In this document: one piece after another, positions 36,154 through 43,873 of the stretch
How the letters are laid out: each line of letters starts with the position of its first letter
Numbering within the stretch: the stretch's first letter is position 1
Assembly: GCF_003148805.1 (NCBI RefSeq)
Contig: NZ_QGGX01000007.1
Span: 186,001-250,000, forward strand
Direction of reading: 5' to 3'
Source: Aminobacter sp. AP02
Lineage (GTDB): Bacteria > Pseudomonadota > Alphaproteobacteria > Rhizobiales > Rhizobiaceae
DNA length: 64,000 nt
Notes under the pieces: generated by a model
The model's database searches: none
What the model was told of the DNA's origin: nothing
Seen by the model: only the letters and a program-made list of their open reading frames with translations
Made by a program: the position numbers and the translations under genes

Positions 36154-36206
36154 TCCTTGCCTGACCTGCCGCTGCCATCGCGGCAGCCTCGAACCTGACG
36201 ATCGAC

Positions 36207-36241
36207 GGCCCTCAGGCAACCGCCTGGGGGCCGTTTTGTTT
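36207..36241 (+). terminator. Rho-independent terminator after the GST gene
   Basis: An 11-bp stem (36207-36217 with 36222-36232, one G-T pair) with the loop AACC is followed by GTTTTGTTT. This is a complete intrinsic terminator and separates the GST gene from the kdp operon. Confidence 0.9.
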
Positions 36242-36391
36242 ATGGAATTCCTATTTCTTTCCGCGCCCCGCGCTCTCGAACCTTAATGCGGTTCGGGACC
36301 ACATTGTCTCCTGAAATCCCAGCGTATCGGCCCCAAGACCTATCCGGTCTTCGGCAAGCACGATGCGTCAAGCAGATGCCACGTCCAACGT

Positions 36392-36408: not shown

Positions 36409-36479
36409 CCGTTGTTTCGCGTGGCTCATGGTCTTTTGCGCCACGGTGCAAGGCCGCAACGGAACAGGAGCCTTCGAAG

Positions 36480-36560
36480 ATGGACATCTTCGTTCTCGCC
36501 ATAGGCGTCGTCTTCTTCGCCTTGTGTTTTGCCTACGTCAAAGCCTGCGACATCCTCTGA
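36480..36560 (+). CDS. Small membrane peptide before kdpF, 26 residues
   Basis: ATG at 36480 opens a 26-codon frame encoding MDIFVLAIGVVFFALCFAYV then KACDIL. It is a single hydrophobic helix with a short polar C-terminus. An AGGAG site lies about 10 bp upstream, and the frame ends 16 bp before kdpF. The same position upstream of kdpF is reported in my memory to hold a similar short peptide in other alphaproteobacteria, but this could not be checked here. Its size and place suggest a regulatory or accessory subunit of the Kdp pump (inference). Confidence 0.7.
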   Translation: MDIFVLAIGVVFFALCFAYVKACDIL

Positions 36561-36576: not shown

Positions 36577-36666
36577 ATGTTGCTCGAATACATTCTTGGC
36601 GGCGCAGTGACCGTGTTCCTGCTTGCCTATCTGACCTACGCGCTCATCCGCCCCGAACGGTTCTGA
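36577..36666 (+). CDS. kdpF: K+-transporting ATPase subunit KdpF
   Basis: A 29-residue peptide, [20 protein letters not shown] then YALIRPERF, a single transmembrane helix with the characteristic YALIRPERF ending of KdpF. It stabilises the KdpABC complex in the inner membrane. An AGCGGAAGGA site precedes the ATG. kdpA starts 31 bp after its stop. It lies too close in size to the detection limit of gene finders and is easily missed. Confidence 0.92.
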
Positions 36667-36697: not shown

Positions 36698-38401
36698 ATG
36701 ACCATCAATGGCTGGATACAGATCGCCGCGTTCTGCGGAGTTATCATTCTGCTCGTGAAGCCGCTCGGCGGCTACATGACCCGCGTCTTCAGTGGCGAAC
36801 GCACGCTTTTGTCGCCCGTTCTCGGCCCCGTCGAGCGTGTGCTCTACCGGCTCGCCGGCACCAGCGAGCGCGAGGACCAGCACTGGACCGGCTATGCCGC
36901 TGCCATGCTGTCGTTCAACATCGCCGGCTTCCTGCTGCTTTACATGCTGCAGCGGTTCCAGGGCTCGCTGCCCTTCAACCCGGCTGCCATGGGTGCTGTG
37001 CCGCCGGAACTCTCCTTCAACACCGCCGTCAGCTTTGTCACCAACACCAACTGGCAGAACTACGGCGGCGAAAGCACGATGTCTTATCTTGTGCAGATGG
37101 CCGGCCTGACCGTCCAGAATTTCGTTTCCGCCGCCACCGGCATCGCCGTCGGCATGGCGCTGATCCGCGGCTTTGCCCGCGCCTCGGGCAAGTCGATCGG
37201 CAATTTCTGGGTCGACCTGACCCGTTCCACGCTCTACGTGCTGCTGCCGCTCTGCGTCGTGCTGACGCTCGCCTATGTCTGGCTCGGCGTGCCGCAGACG
37301 ATCGGCTACTATGTTGCGGCGACCACTGTCGAGGGCGCCCAGCAGACAATCGCCGTCGGCCCGGTTGCCTCGCAGCTGGCCATCAAGATGCTCGGCACCA
37401 ATGGCGGCGGCTTCTTCAACGCCAACTCCGCGCACCCGTTCGAAAACCCCGACGCCATCTCCAACTTCATCCAGATCGTGTCGATCTTTGCCATTGGCGC
37501 GGCGCTGACCAACGTCTTCGGCCGCATGGTCGGCAACCAGCGCCAGGGCTGGGCGATCTTCGCCACCATGGGCATCCTGTTTGTCGCTGGCGTTGCCGTC
37601 ACCTACTGGGCCGAAGCCGCTGGTAACCCGCTGGTCCATGCGCTCGGAATCGACGGTGGCAACATGGAAGGCAAGGAAGTGCGCTTCGGCATTGTCCTGT
37701 CGTCGCTCTTTGCTGTGGTCACCACCGCCGCCTCCTGCGGCGCGGTCAACGCCATGCATGGGTCGTTCACCGCACTTGGCGGCCTCATCCCGCTCATCAA
37801 CATGGAGCTCGGCGAAGTCATCGTCGGCGGCGTCGGCGCCGGTTTCTACGGCATCTTGATGTTCGTCGTCATCGCCATCTTCGTCGCTGGCCTGATGGTT
37901 GGGCGCACGCCGGAATATCTCGGCAAGAAGATCGAGGCCAAGGAGATCAATATGGCGGTGCTGGCCATCCTGTGCCTGCCGCTCGCCATGCTCGGCTTCA
38001 CCGCGATCGCGGTGCTGATCCCTAGTGCCGTGGCGTCCGTCGGCACACCCGGCCCGCACGGCTTCTCCGAGATCCTCTATGCCTACACCTCAGGCGCCGC
38101 CAACAACGGCTCGGCCTTCGGCGGCCTGACCGGCAACACGCCCTGGTACAACATCACAATTGGCCTCGCCATGCTGATGGGCCGCTTCCTGGTCATCATC
38201 CCCGCATTGGCAATCGCCGGTTCGCTGGTCACCAAGAAAACGGTACCCGCTTCCGCCGGCACCTTCCCGACCGACAGTGCGCTGTTCGTCGGCCTGCTTG
38301 CCGGTGTCGTGGTCATCGTTGGCGGCCTGACCTTCTTCCCGGCACTTGCCGTCGGCCCGATCGTCGAGCACCTCGCCATGATCGTCGGCCAGACCTTCTG
38401 A
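36698..38401 (+). CDS. kdpA: K+-transporting ATPase subunit KdpA
   Basis: A 567-residue channel-like subunit that forms the potassium pathway of the Kdp pump. The family selectivity-filter-like loops are visible, for example [36 protein letters not shown] and [14 protein letters not shown]. About ten hydrophobic helices place it in the inner membrane. Length is normal for the family. It is followed 37 bp later by kdpB. Confidence 0.98.
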
Positions 38402-38438: not shown

Positions 38439-40511
38439 ATGAGTGCCCACAAATCCGCGAGCCTGCTCGACGCTCGCATCATCCTCCCCGCCGTCGGCGA
38501 CGCGTTCAAGAAGCTTGACCCGCGCAGCCTGTCCAGGAACCCGGTCATGTTCGTCGTCGCCGTCGTTTCGGCGCTGACCACCGTTCTGTTCGTCAAGGAT
38601 CTGGTCACCGGCGCGGGCGGCCTCGGCTTCTCGTTCCAGATCATCCTGTGGCTGTGGTTCACCGTGCTGTTCGCCAACTTCGCCGAGGCCGTCGCCGAAG
38701 GCCGCGGCAAGGCTCAGGCAGACTCGCTGCGCAAGGCGCGCACCGAAACCCAGGCCAAGCTGCTCGATGGGGAAAGCCGTACCGCCTACAAGATGGTGCC
38801 GGGCACGGCCCTCAAGGTCGGCCAGGTCGTGCTCGTCGAAGCCGGCGACATCATCCCTTCCGACGGCGAAGTCATCGAAGGTGTCGCCTCCGTCAACGAA
38901 GCCGCCATCACCGGTGAATCGGCTCCCGTCATTCGCGAGTCCGGTGGCGACCGCTCGGCCGTGACGGGTGGCACGCAGGTACTGTCCGACTGGATCCGCG
39001 TGCGCATTACCGCTGCCGCCGGCTCGACCTTCCTCGACCGCATGATTTCGCTGGTCGAGGGTGCCGAGCGCCAGAAGACGCCGAACGAAATCGCGCTCAA
39101 CATCCTGCTTGCCGGCATGACGCTGATCTTCGTTCTCGCCGTCGCCACCATCCCGAGCTTCGCCACCTATGCCGGCGGCTATATCCCGGTCATCGTGCTG
39201 GTCGCGCTGTTCGTCACGCTGATTCCCACCACCATCGGCGCGCTTCTCTCGGCCATCGGCATTGCCGGCATGGACCGTCTGGTGCGCTTCAACGTGCTTG
39301 CGATGTCGGGCCGCGCCGTCGAGGCAGCAGGCGACGTCGACACGCTTCTGCTCGACAAGACAGGCACCATCACGCTCGGCAACCGCCAGGCCACCGAGTT
39401 CCGCCCGGTCAAGGGCGTCACCGAACAGCAACTGGCCGACGCAGCCCAGCTGGCCTCGCTCGCCGACGAAACGCCCGAAGGCCGCTCGATCGTCGTGCTC
39501 GCCAAGGAACGTTATGGCATCCGCGCCCGCGATATGGGCACGCTGCACGCCCATTTCGTGCCCTTCACCGCCCAGAGCCGGATGAGCGGCGTCGATTTCG
39601 ACGGCTCCTCCATCCGCAAGGGTGCGGTGGATTCGGTGCTCGAATACGTCAGGTCCTGCGCCGCGTCGGCTTCAGGCACGCGTGTCGACACGGAAGCCGT
39701 GCGTGGTATCCAGGCGATCTCCGACGAGATCGCCAAGCTCGGCGGCACCCCGCTTGCGGTTGTTCGCGATGCCCGCCTGCTCGGCGTCATCTACCTCAAG
39801 GACATCGTCAAGGGCGGCATCAAGGAACGCTTCACCGAGCTGCGCCGCATGGGCATCCGCACCGTGATGATCACCGGCGACAACCCGATGACGGCAGCCG
39901 CCATCGCAGCCGAAGCCGGCGTCGACGATTTCCTCGCCCAGGCGACGCCGGAGAACAAGCTCGGCCTCATCCGCGAGGAGCAGGCCAAGGGCAAGCTGGT
40001 CGCCATGTGCGGCGACGGCACCAACGATGCCCCGGCACTCGCCCAGGCTGACGTCGGTGTCGCGATGAACACCGGCACTGTCGCAGCGCGTGAGGCCGGC
40101 AACATGGTCGACCTCGATAGCGACCCGACCAAGCTCATCGAGATCGTCGAGATCGGCAAGCAGTTGCTGATGACCCGTGGCGCGCTCACCACCTTTTCGA
40201 TCGCCAACGACATCGCCAAGTATTTCGCCATCATCCCGGCGATGTTCCTGGCCTTCTACCCGCAACTCGGCGCGCTCAACATCATGGGGCTGGTAACGCC
40301 GCAGAGCGCCATCTTGTCGGCGATCATCTTCAACGCGCTGGTCATCGTCGCCCTCATCCCGCTGTCGTTGAAGGGCGTGAAGTACCGGGCGATCGGTGCC
40401 GGCTCGCTGCTCCGCCGCAACCTGCTCGTCTACGGCCTCGGCGGCATCATCGTGCCCTTCATCGGCATCAAGGCCATCGACATGGCGATCAACGCCATCG
40501 GCCTCGTGTAA
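38439..40511 (+). CDS. kdpB: K+-transporting P-type ATPase catalytic subunit KdpB
   Basis: A 690-residue P-type ATPase. The phosphorylation motif DKTGT starts at D306, the actuator-domain TGES appears as ITGESAPV, and the hinge [10 protein letters not shown] is intact. The nucleotide domain contains the KGA motif ([11 protein letters not shown]). It hydrolyses ATP to drive potassium uptake through KdpA at low external potassium. It precedes kdpC by 12 bp. Confidence 0.98.
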
Positions 40512-40523
40512 AGGACCTTCATT

Positions 40524-41093
40524 ATGTTGAAGCAACTCAGGCCTGCACTTGTCATGATCGCGGCGCTCACCGTCATCACCGGCCTCATCTATCCCCTGGG
40601 CATGACCGGCATCGCGCAAGCGCTGTTTCCCCATCAGGCCAATGGCAGCCTGGTCGTCAAGGACGGCAAGGTCGTCGGCTCCGAGCTGATCGGCCAGGCC
40701 TTCACCGGCGAGCGCTACTTTCATGGCCGCCCCTCGGCCGCCGGCGACGGCTACAATGCCGCCGGCTCCAGCGGCTCCAACCTCGGCCCGACCAGCGCCA
40801 AGCTGATCGAACGCATCAAGACCGAGGCGGACACGCTCAAGCAGACCGATCCTGGCGCGCCGGTGCCGATGGATCTGGTCACCGCATCGGGCAGCGGCCT
40901 TGATCCGCACCTGTCGCCCGAGGCCGCCTACTTCCAGGTGGCACGGGTGGCCAAGGCGCGTGGCGCCAACGAAGCTGTCATCCGCAGCCTCGTCGACCAG
41001 TATGTCGAGGCACGAGAACTCGGCTTCATGGGCGAACCGGTGGTCAACGTGCTCAAGCTCAATTTGGCCCTCGACGCAGCGGTTGCGCCCTGA
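40524..41093 (+). CDS. kdpC: K+-transporting ATPase subunit KdpC
   Basis: A 189-residue single-span subunit. The N-terminal transmembrane helix ([27 protein letters not shown]) is followed by a periplasmic domain with [28 protein letters not shown] and [17 protein letters not shown], the family hallmarks, and [21 protein letters not shown]. It holds the KdpA-KdpB complex together. kdpD begins 56 bp downstream. Confidence 0.97.
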
Positions 41094-41149: not shown

Positions 41150-43873
41150 ATGCCAGACGATATCAGGGACAAGGAAGCCAGGCCTTCGCCGGACGCGCTG
41201 CTTGAGACAGCCGAGCGTGAAGGACGAGGCCGTCTGAAGATCTTCCTCGGTGCTGCCCCCGGCGTCGGCAAGACCTATGAGATGCTGATGTCGGGCCGTG
41301 CCCGGCTCGCCGACCACACCGACGTCGTCATCGGCGTGGTCGAGACCCATGGCCGGCGCGAGACCCAGGCGCTGGTCGAAGGCTTCGAGGTCATCCCGCG
41401 CAAGGCGGTCGACTACAAGGGCCGCAAGCTCGACGAGATGGACCTCGACGCCATCATCGCGCGCAGGCCGGCACTGGCCCTTGTCGACGAACTTGCCCAC
41501 ACCAACGCGCCCGGCAGCCGCCATCCCAAGCGTTATCTCGATGTCCAGGAACTGCTGACCCAGGGCATCGACGTCTACACCACGCTCAACATCCAGCATG
41601 TCGAGAGCCTCAACGATATCGTCGCCCAGATCACCCGCGTTACCGTGCGCGAGACGGTGCCGGACTCGATCATCGACCGCGCCGACGACGTCGAGATCAT
41701 CGACCTCACGCCCGACGACCTGATCAAGCGCCTGCATGAAGGCAAGGTCTATGTCCCGAGCACGGCGCGCCGCGCCATCGAGAACTACTTTTCGCCAGGC
41801 AACCTGACGGCCCTGCGCGAACTGGCACTGCGCCGCACCGCCCAGCGCGTCGACGAACAGCTTCTCACCCACATGCAGGCCCATGCCATCGAGGGGCCTT
41901 GGGCCGCCGGCGATCGCCTGCTTGTCGCCGTCGACGAGGATCCGCGCGGTGCTTCGCTGGTTCGTTACGCCCGCCGCCAGGCCGACCGCTTGCGCGCGCC
42001 GTGGGCGGCGATCCATGTCGAGACCTCGCGTTCGGCCAATCTGCCAGATGCCGACAAGGACAGGCTCGCCGCCACCATGCGCCTGGCCGAACAGCTCGGC
42101 GGCGAGGCGGTCACCATTCCTGGGCAGTCGGTCGCCGAAGACATTGTCCGCCATGCCAGCACCCACAATTTCACCCACATCGTCGTCGGCAAGGCGAGCA
42201 AGCCGCGCTGGCGCGAATATTTCGAAGGCTCGGTCACCCACGCTCTGATCCGCCAGGCCGGCAACATCAGCGTCCATGTCACTTCGGGTAGCGAGCAGGA
42301 TGCGGCCCTCGCTGCGCAGGGCGTGAAGACGGCTCCCCAGCGCCGGCGTTTCGATCCGTGGCCTTATCTGACGACAGCGCTCCATGTCGTTGGCGCGCTC
42401 TTTGTCGGCATTGCGTTGCAGCAGTTCCTCGACGTTCGCAACATCGCCCTGGTCTTCCTGATGGCGGTGCTGAGTTCGGCCGTGACGTTCGGCCTGTGGC
42501 CGGCATTGTTCGCTTCCTTGCTCAGTGCCGTCGCCTATAATTTCTTCTTCCTTGCGCCGCTCTACACGCTCGACATTTCCGACCCCGAAAGCGTTGTCGC
42601 GCTGCTGTTTTTCCTCATTGTCGCGGTCATCGCCTCCAATCTGACCGGACGTGTCCAGCGCCAGGCTGCCGCCGCACGCGAGCGTGCGCGCATGACCGAG
42701 GACCTCTATCTCTTCTCGAAAAAGCTCGCCGGTACCGGCACGCTCGACGACGTGCTTTGGGCAACCGCCTTCCAGATCGCGTCGATGCTCAAAGTCCGCG
42801 TCGTGCTGCTTTTGCCCGAGGACGGCACCATCGCAGTCAAGGCCGGCTATCCGCCCGACGATACGCTTGTCGATGCCGACATCGCCGCCGCCAAATGGGC
42901 CTGGGAGCACAACCGCGCCGCCGGCCGTGGCGCCGACACCTTGCCAGGCGCCAAGCGCCTTTATCTGCCACTGCGCACCGGGCGCATGGCGGTCGGTGTC
43001 GTTGGTCTCGACAATGACCGCCAGGGCCCGCTTCTGACGCCCGAACAGCAACGCCTGTTCGATGCCCTCGCCGACCAGGCGGCAGTCGCCATCGAGCGTA
43101 TTCAACTTGTCGCCGACGTTGACCGCGCCCGCCTTGCCGTCGAGGCCGACAGGTTGCGTTCGGCGCTGCTGACGTCGATCTCGCACGATCTCAAGACCCC
43201 GCTCGCCAGCATCATGGGAGCTGCCGGCGCGTTGCGCGAATTCGGCGTTTCGTTGCCAGAGGAGGGCAGGGCCGAGCTTGTCTCGACCGTGCTCGACGAA
43301 TCCGAACGGCTCAACCGTTTCATTGCCAATCTGCTCGACATGACCAAGATCGAGTCGGGCGCCATGGAGCCCAACTACGCGCTCCACTACCCCGGTGACA
43401 TCGTCGGCAGCGCGCTCCGCCGCGCCGCCAAGATCACTGCCAATCACAAGCCCGAAGTCGACATGCCGGCCGACCTGCCGATGCTGAAGCTCGACCCGGT
43501 GCTGTTCGAGCAGGTGTTGTTCAACCTGCTCGACAACGCCGCGAAATATGCCCCCGAGGGATCGACCATCCGCATCCGCGGCTGGGCCGACAGTGCGTCG
43601 GTTGCGATCCAGATCATGGACGAAGGCCCGGGCATTCCGCAGGCCGATCTCGAACGCGTCTTCGATACGTTCTATCGCGTGCGCAAGGGCGATCATGTCC
43701 GCGCCGGCACCGGGCTCGGCCTGTCGATCTGCCGTGGTTTCGTCGAGGCGATGGGCGGCACCATTGTCGCCTCGAACCGTGCCGACCGGCCCGGCGCGGT
43801 CTTCACCATCACCATGCCGGTACCGGCCGAGCGGCCAAACTTGGACGGACCAAACTTGGACGGAATTGCATGA
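41150..43873 (+). CDS. kdpD: Sensor histidine kinase KdpD
   Basis: A 907-residue kinase. The N-terminal KdpD domain has Walker A GAAPGVGKT near residue 29 and Walker B DELAHTNAPGS near 110. A USP-like domain, four transmembrane helices at about 400-495, and a GAF-like region follow. The catalytic part has the phospho-accepting H679 in SISHDLKTPLASI, then NLLDNAAKYAPEG and the GTGLGLSICRG ATP lid. It senses potassium limitation or turgor and phosphorylates KdpE. The gene overlaps kdpE by 4 bp. Confidence 0.97.
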   Translation: MPDDIRDKEARPSPDALLETAEREGRGRLKIFLGAAPGVGKTYEMLMSGRARLADHTDVVIGVVETHGRRETQALVEGFEVIPRKAVDYKGRKLDEMDLDAIIARRPALALVDELAHTNAPGSRHPKRYLDVQELLTQGIDVYTTLNIQHVESLNDIVAQITRVTVRETVPDSIIDRADDVEIIDLTPDDLIKRLHEGKVYVPSTARRAIENYFSPGNLTALRELALRRTAQRVDEQLLTHMQAHAIEGPWAAGDRLLVAVDEDPRGASLVRYARRQADRLRAPWAAIHVETSRSANLPDADKDRLAATMRLAEQLGGEAVTIPGQSVAEDIVRHASTHNFTHIVVGKASKPRWREYFEGSVTHALIRQAGNISVHVTSGSEQDAALAAQGVKTAPQRRRFDPWPYLTTALHVVGALFVGIALQQFLDVRNIALVFLMAVLSSAVTFGLWPALFASLLSAVAYNFFFLAPLYTLDISDPESVVALLFFLIVAVIASNLTGRVQRQAAAARERARMTEDLYLFSKKLAGTGTLDDVLWATAFQIASMLKVRVVLLLPEDGTIAVKAGYPPDDTLVDADIAAAKWAWEHNRAAGRGADTLPGAKRLYLPLRTGRMAVGVVGLDNDRQGPLLTPEQQRLFDALADQAAVAIERIQLVADVDRARLAVEADRLRSALLTSISHDLKTPLASIMGAAGALREFGVSLPEEGRAELVSTVLDESERLNRFIANLLDMTKIESGAMEPNYALHYPGDIVGSALRRAAKITANHKPEVDMPADLPMLKLDPVLFEQVLFNLLDNAAKYAPEGSTIRIRGWADSASVAIQIMDEGPGIPQADLERVFDTFYRVRKGDHVRAGTGLGLSICRGFVEAMGGTIVASNRADRPGAVFTITMPVPAERPNLDGPNLDGIA

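Follow-up and report, generated by a model that had tools for sequence, protein, structure and literature searches.

KdpF (PF09604, TIGR02115), the stabilising subunit of KdpFABC, is a single-helix protein of about 29 residues whose gene neighbours kdpA in the kdp operon, and the structure papers, which work on the E. coli pump, describe the Kdp complex as having four subunits. The Clostridium acetobutylicum transcript is quoted in PMC5401905 as kdpZYABCXDE (orfZ/kdpZ), and orfZ and orfY of this organism are reportedly called small hydrophobic peptides; kdpZ of Alicyclobacillus acidocaldarius is a further comparison. CydX and AcrZ are small accessory subunits of one helix each, which stabilise or tune larger membrane complexes. 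A structured leader about 100 nt long, preceding kdpF, was described in a Caulobacter paper, and a 120-nt leader in an M. smegmatis paper.

Here we analysed a 26-residue peptide encoded just before kdpF in the window, a 64,000-nucleotide stretch of DNA from Aminobacter sp. AP02. The peptide resembles KdpF in its single helix, its size and its place in the operon, but its motif and profile differ and the two coexist in one operon. It also resembles orfZ/kdpZ, reportedly likewise a small hydrophobic ORF two genes before kdpA; homology is not established, and the phylum sampled around a Clostridium genome does contain relatives of the peptide (L248, L254–L257). The likeness to CydX and AcrZ, which have other partners, was drawn without sequence comparison. 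It is conceivable, as an inference, that the Caulobacter or M. smegmatis leader hides such a peptide ORF. No recognisable study of the peptide family was found in the open-access literature searched, most subscription papers being outside its scope.

The peptide frame and coding selection

The first-pass annotation had described a 26-residue frame with a good ribosome site, ending 16 bp before kdpF and distinct from KdpF, and both descriptions held. The frame begins with ATG at 36480, ends with TGA at 36560, encodes MDIFVLAIGVVFFALCFAYVKACDIL (26 aa) and is separated from the kdpF ATG (36577) by 16 nt. The features of the locus are as follows.

36204–36235, + strand: intrinsic-terminator-like hairpin 3' of the upstream gene (consensus match only)
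36247–36289, + strand: conserved leader block (ATTCCTATTTCTTT ... CTCTCGAACCTTAATG), near-invariant in nine same-genus loci
36466–36470, + strand: ribosome-binding site AGGAG, 9 nt 5' of the peptide ATG, read directly
36480–36560 including stop, + strand: kdpZ-like small ORF for a 26-aa membrane peptide, predicted single-pass (frame, conservation, coding bias)
36577–36666, + strand: kdpF, 29 aa (PF09604, 4.4e-11)
36698–38401, + strand: kdpA, proposed docking partner (PF03814; aligned with solved KdpA 6hra)
36941–36943, + strand: codon of KdpA Tyr82, equivalent to Phe78 of solved KdpA (alignment and covariation)
36953–36955, + strand: codon of KdpA Arg86, equivalent to Leu82 of solved KdpA, proposed salt-bridge partner of peptide Asp2
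38439–40511, + strand: kdpB (position and DKTGTIT motif, no family-library scan)
40524–41093, + strand: kdpC (position and sequence, no family-library scan)
41150–43873, + strand: kdpD (position and sequence, no family-library scan)

Since a terminator-like hairpin follows the upstream gene and a near-invariant leader block comes next, the operon probably runs peptide-kdpF-kdpA-kdpB-kdpC-kdpD, with the peptide as first cistron. The leader block is likely to be a promoter/KdpE region, a function that is inferred. The ribosome-site stretch reads GGAACAGGAG in six of the nine same-genus loci and AGGAAAGGA in the remaining three.

In the nine same-genus operons, pN/pS was 0.15 in the peptide frame versus 0.77 and 5.9 in the other two frames, and variable columns were distributed 2/1/6 over the three codon positions; the corresponding values for kdpF and kdpA in the same loci were 0.16 and 0.10. 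The coding bias, which the first-pass annotation had proposed checking across relatives, was seen in five groups: in addition to the same-genus operons, pN/pS was 0.33 in nine loci from the family and a near relative, 0.35 in 14 Bradyrhizobium/Afipia-type loci, 0.17 in five Rhizobium-type loci and 0.45 in eight Methylobacterium-type loci. Alternative frames, computed for only the first two of these four further groups, gave 1.1–1.3 in both. The peptide frame also remained intact in the three same-genus loci that carry an insert of about 57 nt between the peptide stop and kdpF. These results demonstrate that the 26-codon frame is real and under purifying selection.

Separately, the window leader contains about 57 extra nt (around 36323–36380) resembling the inserts of those three loci (L002, L007 and L011, from three other same-genus species), with which it shares GGCCC..TTCGG.AAGCACGATGCG. 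This stretch might perhaps be a small palindromic insertion element; a repeat family was not called, the exact pattern having only one copy in the genome.

Neither the peptide nor nine diverse relatives matched Pfam or NCBIfam above cut-off, and weak matches to PsbT, PetM, COX14 and similar families, all below the cut-offs, were taken as composition. In the PDB, two KdpF and three KdpA sequences were found and no solved chain resembling the peptide. That the peptide is a diverged second copy of KdpF would fit the equal size, the one helix and the adjacent gene, together with an E value of 0.0017 in a single hhalign comparison, but the hhalign probability was only 15.6, so the similarity test was not met. 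In addition, the KdpF families PF09604 and TIGR02115 matched only the kdpF at 36577, the peptide and KdpF profiles never picked the same best frame in 144 loci, and the conserved motifs differ (D2...FFA...C[DE]RL in the peptide, YLxYAL..PExF in KdpF). We therefore regard a KdpF copy as very unlikely.

Linkage to kdp and phylogenetic spread

An iterated profile found exactly one peptide frame in each of 81 out of 129 kdp upstream regions, while the reverse strand of the 129 regions gave nothing below E = 1 (best E = 2.1, in the last round). At E ≤ 0.01, the profile gave 61 matches in 60 of 299 whole Pseudomonadota genomes, 107 of which contain kdpA, and all 61 were at kdp operons; 60 lay upstream of kdpA, and the other (G129) was at a contig end, followed by kdpF. 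Match and kdpA coordinates were compared by eye. As the profile was largely built from these 299 genomes, a second draw of 387 class genomes was used, which partly overlaps the first. In this draw, 43 of 44 matches were 133–241 nt upstream of kdpA on the same strand, the lone match away from kdp (G657) being a frame that precedes a permease-like frame. Thirty-five of the 43 matching genomes were new relative to the first draw, and in 34 of these new genomes the match is at kdp. A match was present in 42 of the 66 kdpA-bearing genomes of the class draw; 27 kdpA places had no profile match, and of the 19 read by eye at least 10 show such a peptide. In 25 named genomes of mixed phyla, 14 matches were below 1e-4, of which 13 were upstream of kdpA; the remaining one (G343) was on a different contig, and in that genome a contig end truncates kdpA. 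Three weak matches (E 0.04–0.09) in these 25 genomes were away from kdp. The counts of 61/61, 43/44 and 13/14 satisfy the test that the peptide be encoded beside kdpA/kdpF and not elsewhere, and demonstrate that it is near-exclusively linked to kdp.

The first-pass annotation had suggested searching for similar peptides upstream of kdpF in Hyphomicrobiales; conservation extended far beyond this group. Relatives were seen at named loci of Pseudomonadota, Acidobacteriota, Chloroflexota, Planctomycetota, Binatota, Myxococcota, Thermomicrobiota and Melainabacteria, and further in Deinococcota and in the phyla sampled around two genomes, one of Clostridium and one of Slackia (Actinomycetota). The family thus spans at least ten phyla, and 143 of 225 sampled kdp operons, a non-random sample, bear the peptide. 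No peptide was found in the Clostridia loci examined first (L133–L140, L211), and in the phylum drawn around L211 it was present in 5 of 13 loci (L248, L254–L257), with calls partly by eye. It was absent from the enterics and most of the Pseudomonas examined, one Pseudomonas (L158) being a bearer. In a KdpA tree of 129 rows, 97 of which bear the peptide by profile, the label changed 9 times versus 28.6 in shuffles. Since six enterobacterial and six Pseudomonas-type rows without peptide are nested inside larger bearer groups, their state was read as peptide loss; the tree was made with FastTree, has several weak branches, and its root was not inferred.

The ORF was missing from the PLSDB gene tables, which are incomplete, for plasmids of Rhizobium johnstonii 3841, Azospirillum, Deinococcus and Lichenicola, and may therefore well escape annotation. 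The peptide is a real, widespread small protein of Kdp operons that is apparently unannotated in the gene tables examined.

One alternative is that the frame acts as a leader (upstream) ORF: its translation would control expression of kdpF, and the peptide product would be functionless. In most cases the peptide is the first cistron, with its stop a few nucleotides 5' of kdpF, and the structured leader of the Caulobacter paper would also suit this explanation. Against it, across phyla the codons change but the encoded amino-acid sequence is retained, and the peptide is internal to the operon in Deinococcus radiodurans (kdpB-peptide-kdpF-kdpA-kdpC), in L101 and L106 (kdpF-peptide-kdpA) and in L110 (peptide between a KdpB-like frame and kdpA). 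Nothing would require a leader to conserve its protein sequence at operon-internal places, and the test for a leader peptide, which should always lie at the 5' end and drift freely in sequence, was not met. Furthermore, an Rfam search of the leader gave one sub-threshold match only, and the peptide covaries with a KdpA residue, as described below. A leader ORF is therefore considered very unlikely.

Other small frames were observed in kdp operons. Bradyrhizobium-type operons have a third small hydrophobic frame between kdpF and kdpA (L036, L038, L048, L053, L183 and L202; also L035, L039, L044, L182 and L184), with a pN/pS of 0.58 among six loci, which is weak to moderate coding support. In same-phylum genomes, five loci (L034, L037, L046, L047, L118) have about 250 nt between kdpF and kdpA, holding a recurring frame that ends like RAFRMGIxxxYPPFARKSxP; an Rfam scan of four of the five (L037 excluded) gave no family. 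In Rhizobium johnstonii 3841 a hypothetical protein of 51 aa is annotated between kdpA and kdpB (L119, 2914–3069), and the Clostridia loci L137 and L138 share a small hydrophobic frame of a different type 5' of kdpF.

Covariation of the peptide with KdpA Arg86

Ten columns passed the filter when KdpA of peptide bearers was set against that of three other groups (enterics, Pseudomonas and a Clostridium group). Among those within a helix, Tyr82 and Arg86 were the cleanest; they are conserved in bearers and in the three other groups are mostly hydrophobic and never Tyr or Arg. These residues end the helix before the first pore loop, and the filter residue Gln116, whose mutation is named in PMC6255902 and which is placed in the selectivity filter in PMC8385062, follows 34 residues on. 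From the TM1-pore helix-TM2 plan, this helix end is inferred to be at the outer face. A salt bridge was suggested by L143 and L150, the first bearers by profile found to lack Arg, in both of which the peptide also lacks the N-terminal acid.

In 38 later-fetched KdpA pieces, hand-picked mostly from no-peptide or divergent operons, Arg was present in 14 of 15 with an acid peptide, none of four with an acid-less peptide and three of 19 with no peptide. In 58 loci of Actinomycetota and the Cyanobacteriota phylum, which represent at most the 30 best-scoring places per draw and for which peptide and acid calls were made partly by eye and not blind to the KdpA residue, the counts were 19/19, 0/6 and 0/33. 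Pooled in ungapped register, including the rows that first suggested the salt bridge, Arg86 accompanied 129 of 130 acid peptides, 1 of 13 acid-less peptides and 5 of 82 loci with no peptide; hmmalign columns gave 127/128, 3/15 and 5/82. For seven of the 143 peptides the call was made by eye while the KdpA residue was visible; removing them gave, by subtraction, 125/126, 1/10 and 9/89. Seven loci break the rule: L286 (acid, no Arg), L167 (Arg, no acid) and L250, L122, L263, L266 and L279 (Arg, no peptide found). The later-checked L198 (Arg, no peptide) also breaks it.

Sixteen loci were excluded from the residue tables as repeat fetches of one operon or for truncated kdpA or short upstream sequence (L213–L216, L218–L220, L222–L225, L258, L260, L175, L186, L207); L186 has neither peptide nor Arg, and L207 has Arg with only 62 nt of upstream sequence. 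L029 and L035 were re-read after mis-anchoring. Eighteen loci missed by the KdpA motif were checked afterwards: L021, L125, L157, L254 and L257 have an acid peptide and Arg (the peptides of L125 and L257 and the acid of L254 being called by eye), and L127, L129, L135, L137, L138, L140, L144, L249 and L251 have neither peptide nor Arg. L226 duplicates L144, and L261 and L262 lack a kdpA frame.

The association persisted when descent was controlled with a tree built without KdpA columns 78–90. Of 12 independent pairs, acid and Arg86 changed the same way in 8.5, in opposite ways in 0.0 and without difference in 3.5 (median p 0.004). Contrasts of an acid peptide with none gave 6.4 to 0.0 of 10 (median p 0.03), and those of acid with no acid within bearers gave 5.2 to 0.0 of 6 (median p 0.06), only these six being available on well-supported branches. 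As a control, these tree-based contrasts were run for 174 conserved columns of KdpA 1–420, where Arg86 (net 8.5) and Tyr82 (6.6) led, the next column reaching 3.2. Among 10,920 peptide-KdpA column pairs ranked by MI-APC, Asp2 with Arg86 was first, position 9 with 78 second and Asp2 with Tyr82 third. These results demonstrate that the peptide covaries with KdpA and meet the test of co-evolution with a partner subunit of the Kdp complex.

The test for an antiparallel packing band was weak, with no clear band (i+j=88 ranked 32 of 1108 diagonals). KdpB columns reached an MI z of 7.7 with peptide position 19, and such z-scores can thus arise from shared descent; a scan of KdpB for a lost-with-peptide signature found nothing consistent, and covariation of KdpF with the peptide had no standout (top z 3.8). 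A single-sequence AlphaFold2 model of KdpA (pLDDT 39) was set aside.

Another possibility is that the peptide regulates the sensor kinase KdpD and is not a pump subunit. Small membrane peptides such as MgrB act on sensor kinases, and KdpF has been called a regulatory peptide in mycobacteria in the literature. The strong tree-controlled covariation with KdpA argues against this, KdpD not being included in the covariation test, and we consider a KdpD regulator unlikely. The covariation with Arg86 and Tyr82 likewise favours a subunit over a transcriptional regulator.

Proposed role in the Kdp pump

Net charge at positions 19–26 exceeded that at positions 1–5 in 130 of 143 peptides and was lower in none. 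By the positive-inside rule, the peptide, predicted to be single-pass, is therefore likely to have its N-terminus outside, an inferred topology that would place Asp2 on the Arg86 side. Together with the demonstrated coding conservation, kdp linkage and covariation, this leads us to propose that the peptide is probably a fifth subunit of the Kdp pump, docked on KdpA through Asp2-Arg86. Translation, topology, binding and function are inferred without translation, expression or binding data, and the Asp2-Arg86 contact is a strong computational prediction and not a measured fact. The first-pass suggestion of a second small subunit or regulator of the pump is supported to this extent, by conservation and kdp linkage, with the effect on the pump also inferred.

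In this model, the peptide would act as a stabilising or tuning inner-membrane subunit of the K+ pump, packing against KdpA at helix D1M1 of the first pore-lining repeat. Asp2 would pair with Arg86, close to Tyr82, at the outer face of the membrane, immediately ahead of the first pore loop. Peptide-less lineages, including the E. coli type, carry mostly hydrophobic residues instead of the Arg and usually also instead of the Tyr.

KdpA Gly279 and Trp285 of the window also differ between bearers and most non-bearers, which often have Lys or Arg there, Gly279 being retained in two of six enterics. In the sequence, both are near KdpA Arg278, the cardiolipin site of the E. coli pump (PMC8385062). 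A trade-off between lipid and peptide roles at these positions is raised as a question, not a claim.

A bolder reading, considered less likely than not, is that the ancestral bacterial Kdp had five subunits, that the peptide tunes K+ entry and that the E. coli pump is a reduced form. Here, Asp2-Arg86 would anchor D1M1 beside the first selectivity-filter loop and so set the affinity or selectivity of the KdpA mouth. If this reading were true, conclusions from the E. coli pump would not be fully transferable. If the peptide is a subunit, the four-subunit picture of the textbook high-affinity K+ pump would be that of a derived form.
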